Source: a virus. From it: a stretch of 43,901 bases of DNA. This document shows, one piece after another, positions 24,934 to 33,959 of this stretch; the stretch's first letter is position 1; the number at the start of each line of letters is the position of its first letter. Both the position numbers and the translations under genes were made by a program. The notes beneath the pieces were generated by a model. It was not told the origin of the DNA. It saw only the letters and a list, made by a program, of their open reading frames with translations, and made no database searches. The DNA is taken from the IMG/VR virus record IMGVR_UViG_3300022200_000099, positions 1 through 43,901 of that record, one strand, 5' to 3'.

Positions 24934-26028
24934 TTATCTACCCGCACCAGGAGTTATGGGACCTCTAGGAAGGTCTATGGGGACAGGGTCAATATTACCA
25001 AGACGGGCGATATAGTCCCACCCTGGAAGGTCGCCTCCAATCTCGGGATTGCCCCACAAGTTTCCGTTGATATTTCTCATCTCCTCAAGGCTGAGAGATA
25101 CCTTTAGACGCTGCGCGGTTAGTGACTTTGTGTCATATCCCGCATTCTCAATCGGCTGTATTTTATAATCTGTTACAATACAGGGAGTAAAGTTATACAT
25201 GGTGCCCCACTTTAATTCAACAATAGGAGGACCTTTTACAGGCATCTGTTGAGTACCTATAACAGCACTTCTAATGTTGTTTATTACTTTTTGCATTATT
25301 TTATGATGATTAACCCACTGTGGTGTAGTTCTCATCACCCACATTAACGCGAAATTCCAGTAATTTGAGCCTTGGGCGGATTGTTGCTGTGGGTTTTTCC
25401 ACCATACGTTCGGACCCCAAGGACCTTCCGTGGAATGTCCTCGCTCGTAAGCTTTTCTGGTTAAGTCAGAATCCGATTCCGCACCCGCTGTAGAACCAGT
25501 ATCTCTCCCCAAAGTATCTTGTAGATACTTGGTAACAGCTATCGTATCGCTGTAAATATCCCATCGTCCGGTGTTAATAGTGAACATTTCAGTTAAATCT
25601 TGCTGCCCAATCATTGAAGCCATATGAATGAGACTGTAATGAATATCTATCTTTATTTTCCTGGCTTCACTTCCTGTGTAAAGCCTAACGGGTTCATTTC
25701 TTAAAAGTATTTTTTTGCTTGCGTAATTCGCCTTTCTGGATTCCGTTATCATGGGGTTTTCGAAGAACGGAATCCACACTCTTCTTGTTGATGGATAATT
25801 ATACTGAGTCTCCCGCTGTTCAGGGCTGGGGTTCTGCGACCCCACTGGTGCGTAAGTAAACCGAAGTCCAGCTCGTTTTTCAATAGCTTGGTTTAACTGA
25901 AATCTATCTATAGGTCCTAGCTTGGCGTTTATCTCCCCTTTATCTTTAGACGAAGTGTTATACGATTGAGCGAAATCACTCTCGCTCTGTTGCAGTGCTT
26001 TTATAAATTCAGTTTGATTCATACTCAT
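24934..26028 (-). CDS. Probable tail tube initiator / baseplate cap, gp48/gp54-like
   Basis: 364 residues, the same length as T4 gp48. The C-terminal region, VELKWGTMYNFTPCIVTDYK followed by TAQRLKVSLSLEEMRN (about residues 265-325), has the pattern of tube-like domains in baseplate proteins that start the tail tube. It sits between the tape measure and the gp53-like gene. The ATG overlaps the tape measure stop as TAATG. I assign a tube initiator or cap role from the domain pattern, the length and the position; no single motif proves it. It could instead be another hub accessory protein. Confidence 0.6.
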   Translation of the reverse strand: MSMNQTEFIKALQQSESDFAQSYNTSSKDKGEINAKLGPIDRFQLNQAIEKRAGLRFTYAPVGSQNPSPEQRETQYNYPSTRRVWIPFFENPMITESRKANYASKKILLRNEPVRLYTGSEARKIKIDIHYSLIHMASMIGQQDLTEMFTINTGRWDIYSDTIAVTKYLQDTLGRDTGSTAGAESDSDLTRKAYERGHSTEGPWGPNVWWKNPQQQSAQGSNYWNFALMWVMRTTPQWVNHHKIMQKVINNIRSAVIGTQQMPVKGPPIVELKWGTMYNFTPCIVTDYKIQPIENAGYDTKSLTAQRLKVSLSLEEMRNINGNLWGNPEIGGDLPGWDYIARLGNIDPVPIDLPRGPITPGAGR

Positions 26029-27833
26029 TAAGCCATCCTCCCTGCTCTAATTGGTGTGTATCCCGCGTCATCAGATATAATTTTAAGTTGGTCTTCAGTC
26101 AGACTGTTGTTTTCTTTAGTAGACTCTAGAATTTCTCTTAATACAGCGGTATTTTCTCGCAAAGCATTTGTTACGGAACCTCCTCCCCCCATACCGGCAT
26201 CGGACATTCCTAAGTCCATTGATTCGGCTCTTTGCTCCGCTGCTTCGACCATGGGAGTAGTCCCCTCTGCGCCCTTTGCAATTTCATCTGCGCTTTTTCC
26301 AACCAGTCCAAAAGTTAGACCGGAGGCGATAGAACTTCCAGCATTTTTAAGGGACTCTCCAAACCCGGCACTTGGGTCGGCAGTAAAACCCTTGACACCA
26401 TCATAAATCGCCTTACCTACTGTGAGAGGAAGTGCGACTTTAGTAATTAACCCTTTGCCAAATTTAAGAGCATTTTTCAAAGAAAAAAGATTTTTGCCGA
26501 AGGTTTTCATACCCGCCATCTTTCCTGCGGGATTAGTTAGCATTTCCAGTCTTAAGGCTTTGACGCCCATCAAAAGCGGCTTCAATAGACCAAGGGGTCT
26601 AAGAAGAACACCGCCGAGCCATTTAAGAGGGGTCCAGAATGTCCTCAGGAGAATACCGGGACCCAAAAACCCCACTATACCAAACAAAGCGCCGAGGGCG
26701 GGCATAAGGTATTTTCCTAATGTCGGGCTAAACTCCGAAATCTTGTCAAAAATCTTATTAAGTTCTTTGGCGACATTCCCGGTAAGGTCTAGAAGCATGT
26801 TCTGGAAAGGTTCTGTTTTGTTCCAGATAGTCTGTTGTAAGTTTATAGTGGCGCTTTCATTGGCAAGCTGTTGTACGTTCCCTTCTTTCAGTGCATTAAT
26901 ACTTGTGCCTATTTGGGTTTGGAGGTTGAAGTCCTCTCTACTCAAACCAAAAGACCTCTCCATGGCATCGAAGAAGAACTGAGAACCTGCCCCTTGTTTA
27001 CCCGCCTGTAGACCCTGTATCTTACCAAGAATGGTTTCGAATTTACGAGCCATCTCAGCAGTACTTTCTTTGCCAGTGAATTGAACACCTAGCTTGGCAG
27101 CTTTCATATACCCATCACTACCTGCTAAGAACGATTTAACGAATTTAGCGGACGCCTCTTGTAGCTCAGAATTGCCTTGGGACATCATGGCTGCTATTTT
27201 CTGAGCGTTCATTGCTGCTTTCGGACCCAACTCAACGGTTGTGTCTATCATCGCGTCCCTCATACTGTTAATGGCGTTTATGAGACCTGCGATAGAATCC
27301 TTGTTCTTGACGGCAGTTGTAATTAAATCTTGGGCAAGACCAAGGGAGGCTTCTTCAGATACACCCAGTGCCTGGGTATTAGCCCGCATTAACTGAAAAG
27401 AAGTTTTGTTCTGAATACCAAGAACCTTTAATTGAGCGCCGAACTGCAAGGTGTCGTTCGAGAACCTAGTCATTCCCATATCGACGGCGTCACTAAACAC
27501 CTTTACCATTTGCTCTGCGCCTTGCTGACCTCTGAGGAATCGGTCAGTAGCAGCAGACATACCTTTTGCGGTTTCTCCAGTCTGCCCCAAGGCAGTCGCT
27601 AAATCTTGGTTCATCTTCAGCTGATTACCAATCATGGATTTCAGGTTGAACATACCAGCAGTAAGACCTACTAGAGCTAACCCGTTGTCCCTGATAGCGG
27701 CGGTATTTTTCTTGAAATTTTTGTCTCGTCTAGTCTCCGCCTCTTCCCTCTTGGCATCACTTTTATCACTTGCAATCTTCGAAAGCAAGTCTATAATTTT
27801 CTGTTGCCCAGGGTCGATATTTTCTTCAGCCAT
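26028..27833 (-). CDS. Tape measure protein
   Basis: 601 residues, close to T4 gp29 (590), which sets tail length. The first 365 residues are mostly helical and Ala/Gln/Met-rich, with charged heptad-like stretches near the N-terminus (KREEAETRRDKNFKKN, about 29-44). Residues about 368-425 form a hydrophobic block (YLMPALGALFGIVGFLGPG, then LLRPLGLLKPLLMGV) that could insert into the host membrane. Residues about 550-590 are again helical (NALRENTAVLREILESTKEN). By the usual ratio, a T4-sized tail of roughly 90-100 nm is expected; that is an inference. GTAGAGG precedes the ATG. The gene lies upstream of tube-initiator and hub genes, as expected. Confidence 0.82.
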   Translation of the reverse strand: MAEENIDPGQQKIIDLLSKIASDKSDAKREEAETRRDKNFKKNTAAIRDNGLALVGLTAGMFNLKSMIGNQLKMNQDLATALGQTGETAKGMSAATDRFLRGQQGAEQMVKVFSDAVDMGMTRFSNDTLQFGAQLKVLGIQNKTSFQLMRANTQALGVSEEASLGLAQDLITTAVKNKDSIAGLINAINSMRDAMIDTTVELGPKAAMNAQKIAAMMSQGNSELQEASAKFVKSFLAGSDGYMKAAKLGVQFTGKESTAEMARKFETILGKIQGLQAGKQGAGSQFFFDAMERSFGLSREDFNLQTQIGTSINALKEGNVQQLANESATINLQQTIWNKTEPFQNMLLDLTGNVAKELNKIFDKISEFSPTLGKYLMPALGALFGIVGFLGPGILLRTFWTPLKWLGGVLLRPLGLLKPLLMGVKALRLEMLTNPAGKMAGMKTFGKNLFSLKNALKFGKGLITKVALPLTVGKAIYDGVKGFTADPSAGFGESLKNAGSSIASGLTFGLVGKSADEIAKGAEGTTPMVEAAEQRAESMDLGMSDAGMGGGGSVTNALRENTAVLREILESTKENNSLTEDQLKIISDDAGYTPIRAGRMA

Positions 27834-29448: not shown

Positions 29449-29491
29449 TTTTTTTGCTCGATAATATCGCTATTTTTTGCCGGTCTCGTCT

Positions 29492-29501
29492 GCTATTATA
29501 T
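29492..29501 (+). promoter_or_regulatory. Promoter-like element GCTATTATAT (rightward)
   Basis: GCTATTATAT lies five bases before the primase ATG at 29507. It matches the repeated CTATTATA word of the other divergent gaps. If it is a -10 box, the transcript would have almost no leader. Confidence 0.45.
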
Positions 29502-29506
29502 ACTTG

Positions 29507-30493
29507 ATGTTCGTCCCAGCCAATGTTATTAAGACCTATCTCTCCGAACTCTTCCCGGAGTCCTTGGAGTCAGGAAGGGAGTTGCGTATTAATTCCATTT
29601 TCACGGATGACAACAAGCAAAAACTGTATGTAAATCTTGATTCAGGGCTGTGGACGGACTTCAAATCGGGTGAGAAGGGAAATCTGGTTCATTTAGTGTC
29701 CCATATTGAAAATGTTCCGTATCAGTCAGCCAGACATTTCCTAAAACGCAAAGCCTTTGATGCGGGTGCTGACCTTTTCGACGTATCCACCTTGAATGTA
29801 GACAACAAGGCAGTCGGCGCTACCCGTACGGTTGAGGGTGATAGCGAAGAATGGTTAGAGGTAAACCCCAAATCTGATATCAACTCTCCCAATAATCTCA
29901 AGCGACTCGCCTCCAAGTTCGCTATTGAACGCAAACTAGCTTCTTTTAAGTTTTTTGTGGGACGTACCGGTCGATACTTTCAACGGGTTATTATTCCATA
30001 CTTTACGGAGAAAGGAAATCCTTTTTATTTCCAAGCCAGAACTCTTGTTAACCGAGACCCCAAATACCTAAATCCAAGCAAGGGTCTCTACGGAATCAAG
30101 ACTTCTGAGATTTTGTATCCATACGATAAGACTCAGGAGTATGTTATTGTTACCGAAGGTCCACTAGACGCAATGTCCCTCCGCGCAGCAGGGTTCAATG
30201 CTACCTGTACGCAGGGCTGTAAGATGTCTACAATCCAAGCTAAGGAGCTTAGAGGTAAGAAGGTAATCCTCGCCTATGATAACGATGAAAGTGGACGAGA
30301 GGGCTTCTATGAGGCTCGTAAGAGGATGCTGGCTCAAAGGACCACGAACATCTACTCTTTAGTTCCTCCGAAGGAGCATAAAGACTGGAATGATTTTTGG
30401 GTAGCTTCTGACCGCAAGGATTTCGAGGCTTATGTATACTCGAATATCTTCAGGGCAGATTGGGAGCTAGACGCTACCTCACTATTAACTTAA
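29507..30493 (+). CDS. DNA primase, DnaG-type with TOPRIM domain
   Basis: 328 residues from ATG 29507; a TTG at 29477 is in frame but would put the promoter-like element inside the gene. The TOPRIM domain is clear: VIVTEGPLDAMSLRAAG (about 213-229, catalytic Glu) and VILAYDNDESGREGF (about 252-266, DxD-type metal site). The N-terminal part (about 25-80) follows the CHC2 zinc-finger pattern, LYVNLDSGLWTDFKSGEKGN then LVHLVSH, but without the zinc cysteines. Primases make the RNA primers for lagging-strand synthesis, working with the replicative helicase. Its last 20 bases overlap the convergent gene. It may belong to the group of phage primases that keep the fold but not the metal. Confidence 0.87.
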   Translation: MFVPANVIKTYLSELFPESLESGRELRINSIFTDDNKQKLYVNLDSGLWTDFKSGEKGNLVHLVSHIENVPYQSARHFLKRKAFDAGADLFDVSTLNVDNKAVGATRTVEGDSEEWLEVNPKSDINSPNNLKRLASKFAIERKLASFKFFVGRTGRYFQRVIIPYFTEKGNPFYFQARTLVNRDPKYLNPSKGLYGIKTSEILYPYDKTQEYVIVTEGPLDAMSLRAAGFNATCTQGCKMSTIQAKELRGKKVILAYDNDESGREGFYEARKRMLAQRTTNIYSLVPPKEHKDWNDFWVASDRKDFEAYVYSNIFRADWELDATSLLT

Positions 30494-31475
30494 ATCTAGG
30501 GCTTACGATAGTTTCGTCTGCCACATCATATTGAACAGCGACCTCGTAGACTCCCATGTCCCCTCCAAGTTTCTCATCAGTGTAGAAGGGCGAGATATCA
30601 TTAGTATCCCATACGTAGCTAATAGTTCCTTGGCTATCTAAAGATACCCCTGCGGACTGGAACCCACCTACACCACTTTCCCCAGTTATCTGGACTCGGG
30701 AAGTCAAAACCGGACTTTCGTTTAGTTTGGTGATACTAATTTTTGGGTTGGACAGCAACGAACCTGTCTCCATTAGATTACGAAGATTTTCTTTAATAGG
30801 TTCATTGTCTACCACGATTTCAGTCTGTATTTGAAGCCTCTTCTTGCTTCCCAGTTGCACGTACCGTTGAACTAGCTTGTTGGAGGTAGTGACTTCAAGT
30901 GGTTCGGTAACCGCAAACGTATTAGCGGTATCCATATTGAAGGTGTTTACATAAATCTGGGCTCTAGAACCTTCGGTATGTACCACAGTCCAGATATCAA
31001 TATACCCTCCGGTCGCAGAGGCAGTATTGTTGTACAGAGGGTCCCATGTGGGCGGGGCATCTACCGGCCAATAGGCTCCACTAGGTTGAAGAATAACGCT
31101 GAAATGACCAGTCTTTTCTTTGAAGATTGAGGACGCGCTGTAACGTAAGTCTCCTGCATAGCTGGTTTCTGCCGCACAAGCACTCACATTAGCATCAAAG
31201 CCAATTTTAGCGCCTGAGTCGTTTCTCTTGTAGTTATGAAACACCATGTTGGTGTTTACCGAACTCACTAAACCGTAATTAGCGTCTCCAGGAGTTTGGT
31301 TTACATAGGGAGATGCGGTACCAAAGGCGGTATTAGGGAAAATGTGAACAGAGCATACCTGAAAAGGGTCGCTTAATTCGCCCGCAACATAGTTGAAAAA
31401 TTCCAGTTTAGCTGGAATGATAGGTGAAGGTCGATTGCCCCTTTGAATTACAGTAACGCCGTTGAATGTAGTCAT
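30474..31475 (-). CDS. Unknown beta-rich, probably structural protein
   Basis: 333 residues, not recognised. It is Ser/Thr/Asn/Val-rich with alternating beta-like stretches. The C-terminal third (EKLGGDMGVYEVAVQYDVAD and nearby, about 300-322) looks like an Ig-like or beta-sandwich domain. It is encoded three bases after the end of the frameshift extension of the tail chaperone, with AAGAG just before the ATG, so the two are co-transcribed. This context favours a virion or assembly role. The 3' end overlaps the primase gene by 20 bases on the other strand. Confidence 0.65.
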   Translation of the reverse strand: MTTFNGVTVIQRGNRPSPIIPAKLEFFNYVAGELSDPFQVCSVHIFPNTAFGTASPYVNQTPGDANYGLVSSVNTNMVFHNYKRNDSGAKIGFDANVSACAAETSYAGDLRYSASSIFKEKTGHFSVILQPSGAYWPVDAPPTWDPLYNNTASATGGYIDIWTVVHTEGSRAQIYVNTFNMDTANTFAVTEPLEVTTSNKLVQRYVQLGSKKRLQIQTEIVVDNEPIKENLRNLMETGSLLSNPKISITKLNESPVLTSRVQITGESGVGGFQSAGVSLDSQGTISYVWDTNDISPFYTDEKLGGDMGVYEVAVQYDVADETIVSPRFKLIVR

Positions 31476-31478
31476 CTC

Positions 31479-31661
31479 TTATTTATTTAGGGAGTCATAG
31501 GACTCTTTTTCCCTCTGATTCTCATCAATTAATAGCTTCATAAACTCATCTCTTTCAACAGCTGGCATAAGTAGCACATCTCGGTAACTGAACCTCGCGT
31601 GTTTCACTAAATAATAAGCTTCCGACGCTAGAGCGGAGATTCGCGCTTCTAGCTCACTGAG
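31479..31661 (-). CDS. -1 frameshift extension of tail assembly chaperone (60 residues)
   Basis: After a stop at the left of frame -1 (TGA within the chaperone's final codons), this frame stays open to TAA at 31479-31481 but contains no ATG, GTG or TTG before the coding-like part. It encodes LSELEARISALASEAYY, then HARFSYRDVLLMPAVERDEF and a charged helical end. The ER-containing pattern resembles the C-terminal parts of phage tail assembly chaperones such as the lambda T and P2 E' products. It would be made only as a fusion to the 302 zero-frame residues, giving a 362-residue protein. A slippery heptamer and stem-loop lie exactly at the junction. The extension ends three bases before the next ATG. 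Confidence 0.75.
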   Translation of the reverse strand, partial: LSELEARISALASEAYYLVKHARFSYRDVLLMPAVERDEFMKLLIDENQREKESYDSLNK

Positions 31662-31667
31662 AAAAAA
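31627..31667 (-). promoter_or_regulatory. Programmed -1 ribosomal frameshift signal
   Basis: On the minus strand the zero frame reads TCT TTT TTC, giving the classical heptamer T TTT TTC at 31667-31661. A 7-base spacer (TCAGTGA) follows. Then GCTAGAAGCG (31653-31644) pairs with CGCTCTAGC (31635-31627) around the loop CGAATCTC: nine base pairs with one bulged A. Distance and strength fit a stimulatory stem-loop. The zero-frame stop TAG lies inside the stem. Confidence 0.8.
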
Positions 31668-32566
31668 GAGTCTGTAAACGGAATAAGACTTTCGGTGACC
31701 TCACCACAATTCGCGCACTCGTAGGACATCGCCTTATTCATGCCATAATTATCTTTTGTGAGAGACTCGCGGAAGTATGCAACATCCCGGACAGTGGTAG
31801 CTTCGAAGAACCCTTTAATTACTTTCTTCTCGCTGTACTTCCCTACCGATAAAGCAAAGCGCCATAAATTATCAATTAATTTTCCGGCACTTTCCAGGTA
31901 CTGCTCGTCCTTACAGCGAGGAGTTACGAACTTAACTTCTTGTTGGGAATCTGGTAGGGTTATGGTAAGAGGTTCCTTGTACCCATCTTCTGCGTAAGTA
32001 ACAGGAACATCTGAAATTTTCACAGTCAGTTTGTTAATTGACTGGCATTCCTGGCATTCTGCCTGAATAGTATAATCATCACCGTAAGAAATCTCTCTTA
32101 ATTTAAACAAAATATAATTTTTGTCTTCTAAAGTCATTGAGTCGTAATCTAATCCGCGCACACAATCTTCAATCAAAGCGTTAATCACCTTTACTCCTTG
32201 TGCACTGGTTTTAATGCTACGTAACTTTCTTTCCTGTGCAAAAGTAAAAGGCTTAATCATGATACTTTCGTCACAGTCTACGTAAGCCAATCCTCTTGAA
32301 GGAAGCTTTAAAGCTCTCCAGTCTTGGTTTGTAGATACATTAGAAAGCAGGTCGGCTACCGCATCTGATAGTTTGCCGTCAAAATGTTCTTGAACCTGTG
32401 GCGTTTTCTCCTTCTCATCGGAAATAGGCTTTACAGCGGTTTGAGAGGGACGGCTGGCAACGGGTGCCTCGGGAATGTTTACTCCTTGCTCGGGAGAGGC
32501 ACCATGCTCCTCCATATGTTTTCTAGCAAGCTCAATAAGACTTTTTTCTTTTTCGGGTTTTGACAT
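31649..32566 (-). CDS. Tail/baseplate assembly chaperone, T4 gp26/gp51-like
   Basis: 305 residues in the zero frame. The first 75 residues are charged and probably flexible. The core has LKLPSRGLAY (about 86-95) and SIMIKPFTFAQERKL (about 101-115), the pattern of the T4 baseplate hub assembly family. Two Cys pairs, C171/C174 in ECQECQ and C284/C287 in YECANCGE, could bind zinc. Such proteins help assemble the hub and tape measure and are usually not in the virion. The end carries a strong -1 frameshift signal that would add 60 residues. It is transcribed leftward from the palindromic element at 32588-32606. Unusually, it is separated from the tape measure gene by about 3.8 kb that includes genes on the other strand. 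Confidence 0.75.
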   Translation of the reverse strand: MSKPEKEKSLIELARKHMEEHGASPEQGVNIPEAPVASRPSQTAVKPISDEKEKTPQVQEHFDGKLSDAVADLLSNVSTNQDWRALKLPSRGLAYVDCDESIMIKPFTFAQERKLRSIKTSAQGVKVINALIEDCVRGLDYDSMTLEDKNYILFKLREISYGDDYTIQAECQECQSINKLTVKISDVPVTYAEDGYKEPLTITLPDSQQEVKFVTPRCKDEQYLESAGKLIDNLWRFALSVGKYSEKKVIKGFFEATTVRDVAYFRESLTKDNYGMNKAMSYECANCGEVTESLIPFTDSFFSVS

Positions 32567-32587
32567 GTTTAATTAAAATAGTTTGGT

Positions 32588-32606
32588 ACTATTATACTAT
32601 AATAGT
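32588..32606. promoter_or_regulatory. Perfect 19-base palindrome, probable bidirectional promoter
   Basis: ACTATTATACTATAATAGT reads the same on both strands around C32597. Each half is the ACTATTATA word found before other genes. It sits between the leftward chaperone gene (ATG 32566) and the rightward UvsW gene (ATG 32610, four bases after the palindrome). It could be two back-to-back promoters, or an operator for a dimeric regulator. Confidence 0.55.
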
Positions 32607-32609
32607 GAT

Positions 32610-33959
32610 ATGCTAAAAATTATTGTTGAAAATAATGTTTCTTTTCTAAAAACAAGCAATAAAAAGCTCTTAACAACTTTAAAAAAGAAATATAGCGCAA
32701 AGGTTCCCGGCTATAACTATTCTTCTGCTTATAAAAAGGGCGGTTGGAATGGTGAAAAGCACTTTTTCTCTGATAAAACAGGGAAGTTTGGAACCGGTCT
32801 TTTATCTCATATCGAGGAAGACCTCACTTATTTAGGTATGGACTACGAAATAGAGGATTTGAGGACTGCTACCCACTCTGACGATATCTCTTTACCTAAC
32901 ATAACCCTACGAGATTACCAAGAATCCATGATTAGAAAGGCGTTGGATGCCAAGGGGTGTATTATTAAGGCTCCTACAGGCGCGGGAAAGACCCTTATTC
33001 TTGGCGGGCTACTTAAAGCACTAGAAGGAAAAACAGGTCTCATCTTCTTCACCAAAAAACAGCTACTCAAACAAACATACGACGAGCTTAGGGAGTGGGG
33101 GATTGATGTTGGTCTAGCATTCGGGGACGGAGTAATACTCAAGCCAATGACGTTATGCACCGTTCAGTCCATTGATAAGGTTATTGATAGCCACCTTAAA
33201 CAGTCGGACTTCATTATTTTTGATGAGGTACATGAATTCGCTAAAGGAAAGGTAGCCACCAAGGTCATAAAGTCTTTCCCTAACGCTGCTTACAGGATTG
33301 GTATGACAGCCACAGTACCCCGTGACCCTATGAGTCGTCTAAATCTTATATCAGGACTAGGTGGTGTTATTGAAGAAGTTGATGCCAAAGGTCTCATTGA
33401 CGAAGGATTCCTCACCGAGCCGCTCATCCAAATAATACCTATAAAAGATACGGGCACGGTAGAGGATACCGAACTATCTTACCGGGAGGTGTATGAGAAG
33501 TTCGTCACGGAGAATGATGCCCGCAACGATATTATCGTGGAGTTGGTGAAAAAAATCCAACAAAAACAATCCAGGACTCTTATAATAGTTAAAGACCTTA
33601 AACATGCTGAGATTTTGCATTCACGCATCCCTAACTCCTTTAAATTAGAAGGAAAAGATGACTTGGTTGCTCGAAAAAAGACCATCGACGCCTTTAAAGA
33701 TGACTCCATCTCAGTCCTGATAGGTACTACGATTATGCAAACAGGTATTGATATCCCGGAAATCACACACCTCATTAATGCGCGTGGACTGAAGTCTGAG
33801 ATTGCTACGCTACAGGCTCTCGGACGAGCCTTGCGTATTCACAAATCTAAGAACCGCGTGTTTATTTACGATTTCTTTGACAGAGCGCCTTACTTAGAAA
33901 AACACGCCAAAGAGCGTATTAAATCCTATGAATCCCTAGGAATGGAGATTAAAAAATGA
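32610..33959 (+). CDS. uvsW: DNA helicase, UvsW-like (superfamily 2)
   Basis: 449 residues from ATG 32610; an upstream ATG at 32583 would place the palindrome inside the gene. Helicase motifs: Q-motif region LRDYQESMIRKA, Walker A APTGAGKT (121-128), DEVH box in FIIFDEVHEF (about 202-211), motif III GMTATVPR (about 230-237), and motif VI QALGRALRIH (about 401-410). The N-terminal 100 residues, with YNYSSAYKKGGWNGEKHFF, match the UvsW substrate-grip region. In T4, UvsW remodels branched DNA and removes R-loops, switching from origin- to recombination-dependent replication. The stop overlaps the next ATG. Confidence 0.92.
   Translation: MLKIIVENNVSFLKTSNKKLLTTLKKKYSAKVPGYNYSSAYKKGGWNGEKHFFSDKTGKFGTGLLSHIEEDLTYLGMDYEIEDLRTATHSDDISLPNITLRDYQESMIRKALDAKGCIIKAPTGAGKTLILGGLLKALEGKTGLIFFTKKQLLKQTYDELREWGIDVGLAFGDGVILKPMTLCTVQSIDKVIDSHLKQSDFIIFDEVHEFAKGKVATKVIKSFPNAAYRIGMTATVPRDPMSRLNLISGLGGVIEEVDAKGLIDEGFLTEPLIQIIPIKDTGTVEDTELSYREVYEKFVTENDARNDIIVELVKKIQQKQSRTLIIVKDLKHAEILHSRIPNSFKLEGKDDLVARKKTIDAFKDDSISVLIGTTIMQTGIDIPEITHLINARGLKSEIATLQALGRALRIHKSKNRVFIYDFFDRAPYLEKHAKERIKSYESLGMEIKK

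Follow-up and report, generated by a model that had tools for sequence, protein, structure and literature searches.

The gp26-like gene and the frame behind its stop

The window, by which we mean the whole 43,901-nt stretch of the uncultured, T4-like virus record IMGVR_UViG_3300022200_000099, encodes on its minus strand a zinc-ribbon protein whose reading frame ends with GAC TCT TTT TTC TCA GTG AGC TAG. The following features were recognised at this locus:

31649–32566, minus strand: zero-frame ORF of 305 aa, a zinc-ribbon protein of the gp26 family (matched by PF12322 and phrog_150), which would be the short, G-like product
31661–31667, minus strand: slippery heptamer T TTT TTC in the X XXY YYZ phase, read directly from the sequence and identical in 22/22 relatives of the clade
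31479–31661, minus strand: −1 frame ORF coding for a 60-aa module (LSELEARISALASEAYYLVKHARFSYRDVLLMPAVERDEFMKLLIDENQREKESYDSLNK) followed by a stop, recognised by its pN/pS values, profile homology to gp51 and a helical model
31648–31653, minus strand: 5′ arm of a putative stem, GCTAGA, 7 nt after the heptamer and overlapping the zero-frame stop
31627–31632, minus strand: 3′ arm of the same stem, TCTAGC, conserved in 16/16 distinct sequences

The TAG stop of the gp26-like ORF occupies positions 31651–31649 of the minus strand and lies 16 nt from the heptamer, which sits in the phase of the zero frame. The −1 ORF consists of 60 codons (31661–31482) and a stop codon (31481–31479); joined to the zero frame, it would give a gp51-like (or GT-like) fusion of 362 residues. 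Heptamers of this kind are rare in the window: in-frame TTTTTTN was found at only 5 of the 12,926 in-frame positions of its 28 long ORFs.

The zero-frame protein is matched by the Pfam family PF12322 (T4_baseplate) with E = 1.5e-18 and 67.7 bits, the family cut-off being 24.5, and by phrog_150, 'baseplate hub', with E = 2.3e-20. Its predicted fold has a pLDDT of 84.7 and the best viral structure match of this model is the baseplate hub protein of phage SP-15 (E = 7e-19). By these profile matches, the protein is a member of the T4 gp26/gp51 family. Three proposals of the first-pass annotation are borne out at this level, namely a gp26/gp51-like zinc-ribbon protein as the zero-frame partner, a T TTT TTC three codons ahead of the zero-frame stop (31667–31661, minus strand) and a fusion length of 362 residues. 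For the proteins of the window virus, the name 'tail assembly chaperone' is one that we infer.

The next minus-strand ORF after the fusion gene, located directly 3′ of it at 30474–31475, codes for 333 aa, has a start that is conserved in the clade and lacks a match in Pfam or PHROGs; no recognised tape measure gene adjoins the locus. A 601-aa minus-strand ORF at 26028–27833 looks tape-measure-like by eye and is a candidate only: it has no profile match, tape-measure profiles included, and the tape-measure profile PF25671 had no match anywhere in the window. Two plus-strand ORFs that by eye appear to code for a primase-like protein (29477–30493) and a UvsW-like helicase (32583–33959) lie among the structural genes of the minus strand.

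Conservation of the slippery site and the downstream stem

The heptamer and the −1 peptide could be checked in 22 relatives (15 + 7) with sequence identities down to 40%, some of the contigs being near-identical copies. Contigs L019/L137, with a frame break inside the gene, and the truncated contigs L017 and L018 were dropped from the clade counts, and L142 was assigned to the +1 type described below. In all 22, T TTT TTC is found exactly 16 nt before the stop of the gp26-like ORF and is followed by a homologous −1 module of 58–62 residues.

The first-pass annotation had also described a stem of nine pairs with one bulge that starts seven bases after the heptamer. The spacing stands, and falls within the 5–9 nt expected for a potential stimulatory structure, but the conserved part is 6 bp long rather than nine pairs. 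This 6-bp stem (GCTAGA/TCTAGC) is kept in 16/16 distinct sequences, the single exception being one A-C pair in one sequence. Compensatory double changes were seen at pair 8–34 (G-C to A-T in L133) and pair 12–30 (G-C to A-T in L132); these changes are few, just two, and the stem overlaps codons that are conserved for other reasons. The minimum-energy fold of the window sequence is a longer, bulged stem of −13.8 kcal/mol with a z-score of only −0.85. Since this energy is unremarkable, it was rejected as evidence for the stem and covariation was used in its place; conservation is what supports the stem. On that basis, the stem is a potential stimulatory structure.

The −1 module and its relation to gp51

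Comparison of the 14 modules of equal length gave a pN/pS of 0.35 for the −1 frame, against 1.14 for the zero frame and 1.50 for the +1 frame. By these substitution patterns, purifying selection acts on the module in the −1 frame only. The suggestion that the 60-codon −1 ORF has no usable start also holds: the window module has its first start codon, a GTG, only at codon 19, and this GTG is not kept in the relatives. None of the 17 clade sequences has a start codon before module codon 18, there is no conserved start, and coding conservation in the window clade begins upstream of the first possible start codon.

Structure prediction for the module gave a three-helix model with a pLDDT of 81. 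The 60-aa module alone had no significant match in Pfam, PHROGs or phage sequences, so that its homologues had to be sought with profiles. Foldseek comparison of the zero-frame and module models with solved structures likewise returned nothing significant, and a structural link to the lambda- or HK97-type chaperones could therefore not be shown.

Profiles connect the module to the T4 proteins. T4 gp26 corresponds to PF12322 along its whole length and T4 gp51 to PF12322 plus a C-terminal extension, and of this pair only gp51 has the module. Alignment by hhalign of the window-clade module with the C-terminus of gp51 (∼50 residues) gave E = 1.2e-5; the same region was matched with E = 4e-12 by the cyanophage set introduced below and with E = 9.8e-12 by a joint profile. 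A hidden Markov model of the module recovered gp51 of T4 and six of its relatives with E-values from 2.4e-9 to 1.6e-4, while none of the unrelated decoy ORFs reached E < 0.01; the apparent decoys below this threshold all turned out to be modules, or gp51 itself, read from stop to stop. In addition, 18 of the 23 modules matched phrog_634, 'baseplate hub assembly catalyst'. Because the −1 module and the gp51 C-terminus are homologous, T4 gp26 and gp51 are the counterparts of the short and long products. The idea that the T4 family can be tied to the frameshift rule seen in other tails thus holds through this homology, and it extends far beyond the window virus.

Cyanophages and other phages with the −1 layout

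The same layout is widespread among cyanophages. All 80 cyanophage-type contigs have the heptamer at the end of the gp26 gene, as T TTT TTC in 79 and as T TTT TTA in one, at a distance of 10 or 7 nt from the stop. Beyond this stop, the −1 frame stays open for at least 120 nt in 76 of the 80, the other four running into contig ends, whereas the +1 frame is open in none. Codon choice near the ends of ORFs in these contigs is extreme: Phe-Phe is written as TTTTTC in 77 of 78 cases within the last four codons, as against 18 of 336 elsewhere.

Beyond the cyanophages, the layout reaches phages of Vibrio, Aeromonas, Rhizobium and Stenotrophomonas. Among named phages, cyanophages included, it was seen in P-SSM7, ACG-2014g, Moby, phiWae14, the KVP40-like V09, Asswx_1 and a marine Kyanovirus, and with TTTTTTG in RL2RES. 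In the Ackermannviridae phage GG32 (L031, 2150–2956) a −1 ORF overlaps the end of the gp26 gene and the gap to the next gene is unannotated; the site there reads G ATT TTC, which is not a perfect heptamer, and GG32 was not counted as support. The 595-kb uncultured phage LR756511 carries a gp26-family gene (L023, 4788–5897) in which G GGT TTT TTC precedes the stop by ∼ 70 nt; the −1 frame is open and closes with a similar module, so that a frameshift far upstream of the stop is possible there.

Cyanophage gp51 was described as a shortened gene that lacks the first ∼ 200 residues of T4 gp51, yet matches its C-terminus, in a study whose text does not contain the word 'frameshift' (Sullivan 2010, PMC3037559). 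The annotated 31-aa gp51 proteins of P-SSM7 and ACG-2014g (2274–2369 in L025, 2277–2372 in L026) appear to be the distal part of the −1 ORF, and this cyanophage 'gp51' annotation likely needs correction.

A +1 class among relatives of phage SP-15

In the relatives of Bacillus phage SP-15 (contigs L143–L174, L020, which is SP-15 itself, L021 and L022), it is the +1 frame, and never the −1 frame, that stays open beyond the stop of the gp26 gene (29/29 contigs). The module encoded in this +1 frame is homologous to that of the window clade (E = 1.1e-8), and the same +1 arrangement was seen in LIS04 and GXN1. The overlap commonly reads TTY TTT CGT CCN, with AAT CCC AGT in one subgroup; the SP-15 clade likely shifts by +1 at TTT C or CCN.

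Genes for tail assembly chaperones usually lie between the tube and tape-measure genes. The gp26 gene occupies this interval in LIS04, and in SP-15 it is found between the tube gene and a large (3.6 kb) putative tail protein gene, so that a position upstream of the tape measure applies to LIS04 and probably to SP-15.

How the second frame would be reached

We consider it highly probable, from the sequence features taken together, that a single gene of the window virus yields both a 305-residue gp26-like protein and a 362-residue gp51-like protein by −1 ribosomal slippage on T TTT TTC. The majority of ribosomes would read the zero frame and release the shorter protein. A minority would slip back by one base on the heptamer, where the tandem pair of tRNA-Phe would re-pair on TTT TTT, helped by the short stem 7 nt downstream, and would then translate 60 further codons, adding the C-terminal helical module. 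The two products may act in the manner of lambda G and GT, the shared domain holding or coating the tape measure and the extra module of the long product recruiting subunits of the tube or hub. In T4 and its close kin, the same two forms would come from the paralogous genes 26 and 51. The predicted short and long isoforms with a common N-terminal part fit the architecture of the sequence; the slippage itself, its rate and the G/GT-like action of the products are what we infer.

An improbable alternative is a small independent gene in the second frame, with ribosomes that terminate at the gp26 stop re-initiating there or close by. It accords with the records of P-SSM7 and ACG-2014g, which annotate a separate 31-aa gp51, and with the ATG that 24 of the 75 modules of cyanophage type have within seven codons; the gp26 stop of Moby, RL2RES and V09 is overlapped by an ATG, so that re-initiation could yield a separate module in these phages. 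In the window clade, however, no start is possible before codon 18, the first candidate start is not conserved, and coding conservation sets in ahead of it. A separate gene would also leave the invariant heptamer and the extreme preference for TTTTTC without a role, and T4 gp51 carries the module joined to a PF12322 domain.

Slightly less probable still is slippage of RNA polymerase on the T6 run, with the fusion made from an mRNA into which a base has been inserted. All −1 members do have six T in a row, as this reading would have it, but six is a short run for transcriptional slippage and the stem is kept at the standard ribosomal spacing. The phase of the heptamer does not discriminate between ribosomal and transcriptional slippage, because the Phe-Phe codons also fix the phase. 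A decayed or mis-sequenced single gene, in which a frameshift mutation or assembly error has split the frame and no fusion is made, is already refuted by conservation and has a negligible chance of being right: the L019/L137 relative indeed carries a frame break at another point of the gene, but the same break at the same heptamer recurs in 22 contigs and many cultured phage genomes, and the second part is under purifying selection.

With −1 ribosomal slippage as the preferred reading for the window virus, the distribution of the module in the wider group can probably be summarized as three routes to one protein pair: slippage by −1 at T TTT TTC in the majority of T4-like relatives, the marine clade of the window among them, slippage by +1 in the relatives of SP-15, and two paralogous genes in T4 and its close kin, so that the direction of the shift would have been switched while the protein pair was kept.

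Comparison with known systems

Frameshifts in tail assembly chaperone genes were reportedly described for lambda G/GT, P2 E/E′ and others by Levin in 1993 and by Xu in 2004, 2013 and 2014. Such frameshifts have been reviewed (PMC5009743): in lambda, both gpG and gpGT associate with the tape measure, the T part serves to recruit the tube protein, and the chaperones are absent from the virion. The window gene resembles the lambda and P2 genes in that one tail gene would give a short product and a rarer −1 extension, and in that the slippery site lies near the end of the first frame. In contrast to the lambda- and P2-type chaperones, the domain shared by the two window products is the zinc-ribbon PF12322, without a detectable match among solved structures. 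In the cyanophage gp26/'gp51' genes, the C-terminal piece sits downstream of T TTT TTC in the −1 frame, as it does in the window virus, although the heptamer is 10 nt from the stop there and 16 nt in the window.

G-T frameshifting has been said to be widely conserved in long-tailed phages 'except T4' (Atkins et al. 2016). T4 gp26 and gp51 have been listed as hub assembly chaperones, gp51 being essential and of unknown function (PMC3004832). Both are PF12322 proteins like that of the window, and gp51 has the homologous module; T4 and its relatives make the short and long forms from two genes, without a frameshift, whereas in the window virus a single gene would yield both.

If the fusion is made, the T4 gene pair is an alternative to one frameshifted gene and gp51 is the long chaperone; many annotations of cyanophages and T4-like phages would then need correcting, with 'gp51' being the tail of a gp26 fusion.

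Tail assembly chaperone genes of T4-like phages were reportedly identified by Vladimirov, Gautam and Davidson in 2022 (Virology 566:9-15). As far as can be judged from the papers that cite it, their assignment of short and long chaperones is of the same kind as the window pair. The PRFect paper (PMC10885494) credits T4-like phages with one gene for the short form and another for the long fusion, and the Adele paper (PMC12846349) mentions poly-T −1 signals in T4-like TAC-N genes, both citing Vladimirov 2022. Since these papers credit that work with T4-like chaperones and poly-T signals, the central idea is already in print; the general idea has largely been published, and the window clade and the breadth presented here may add to it. 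The −1, +1 and two-gene solutions offer a natural comparison of ways to solve one stoichiometry problem.
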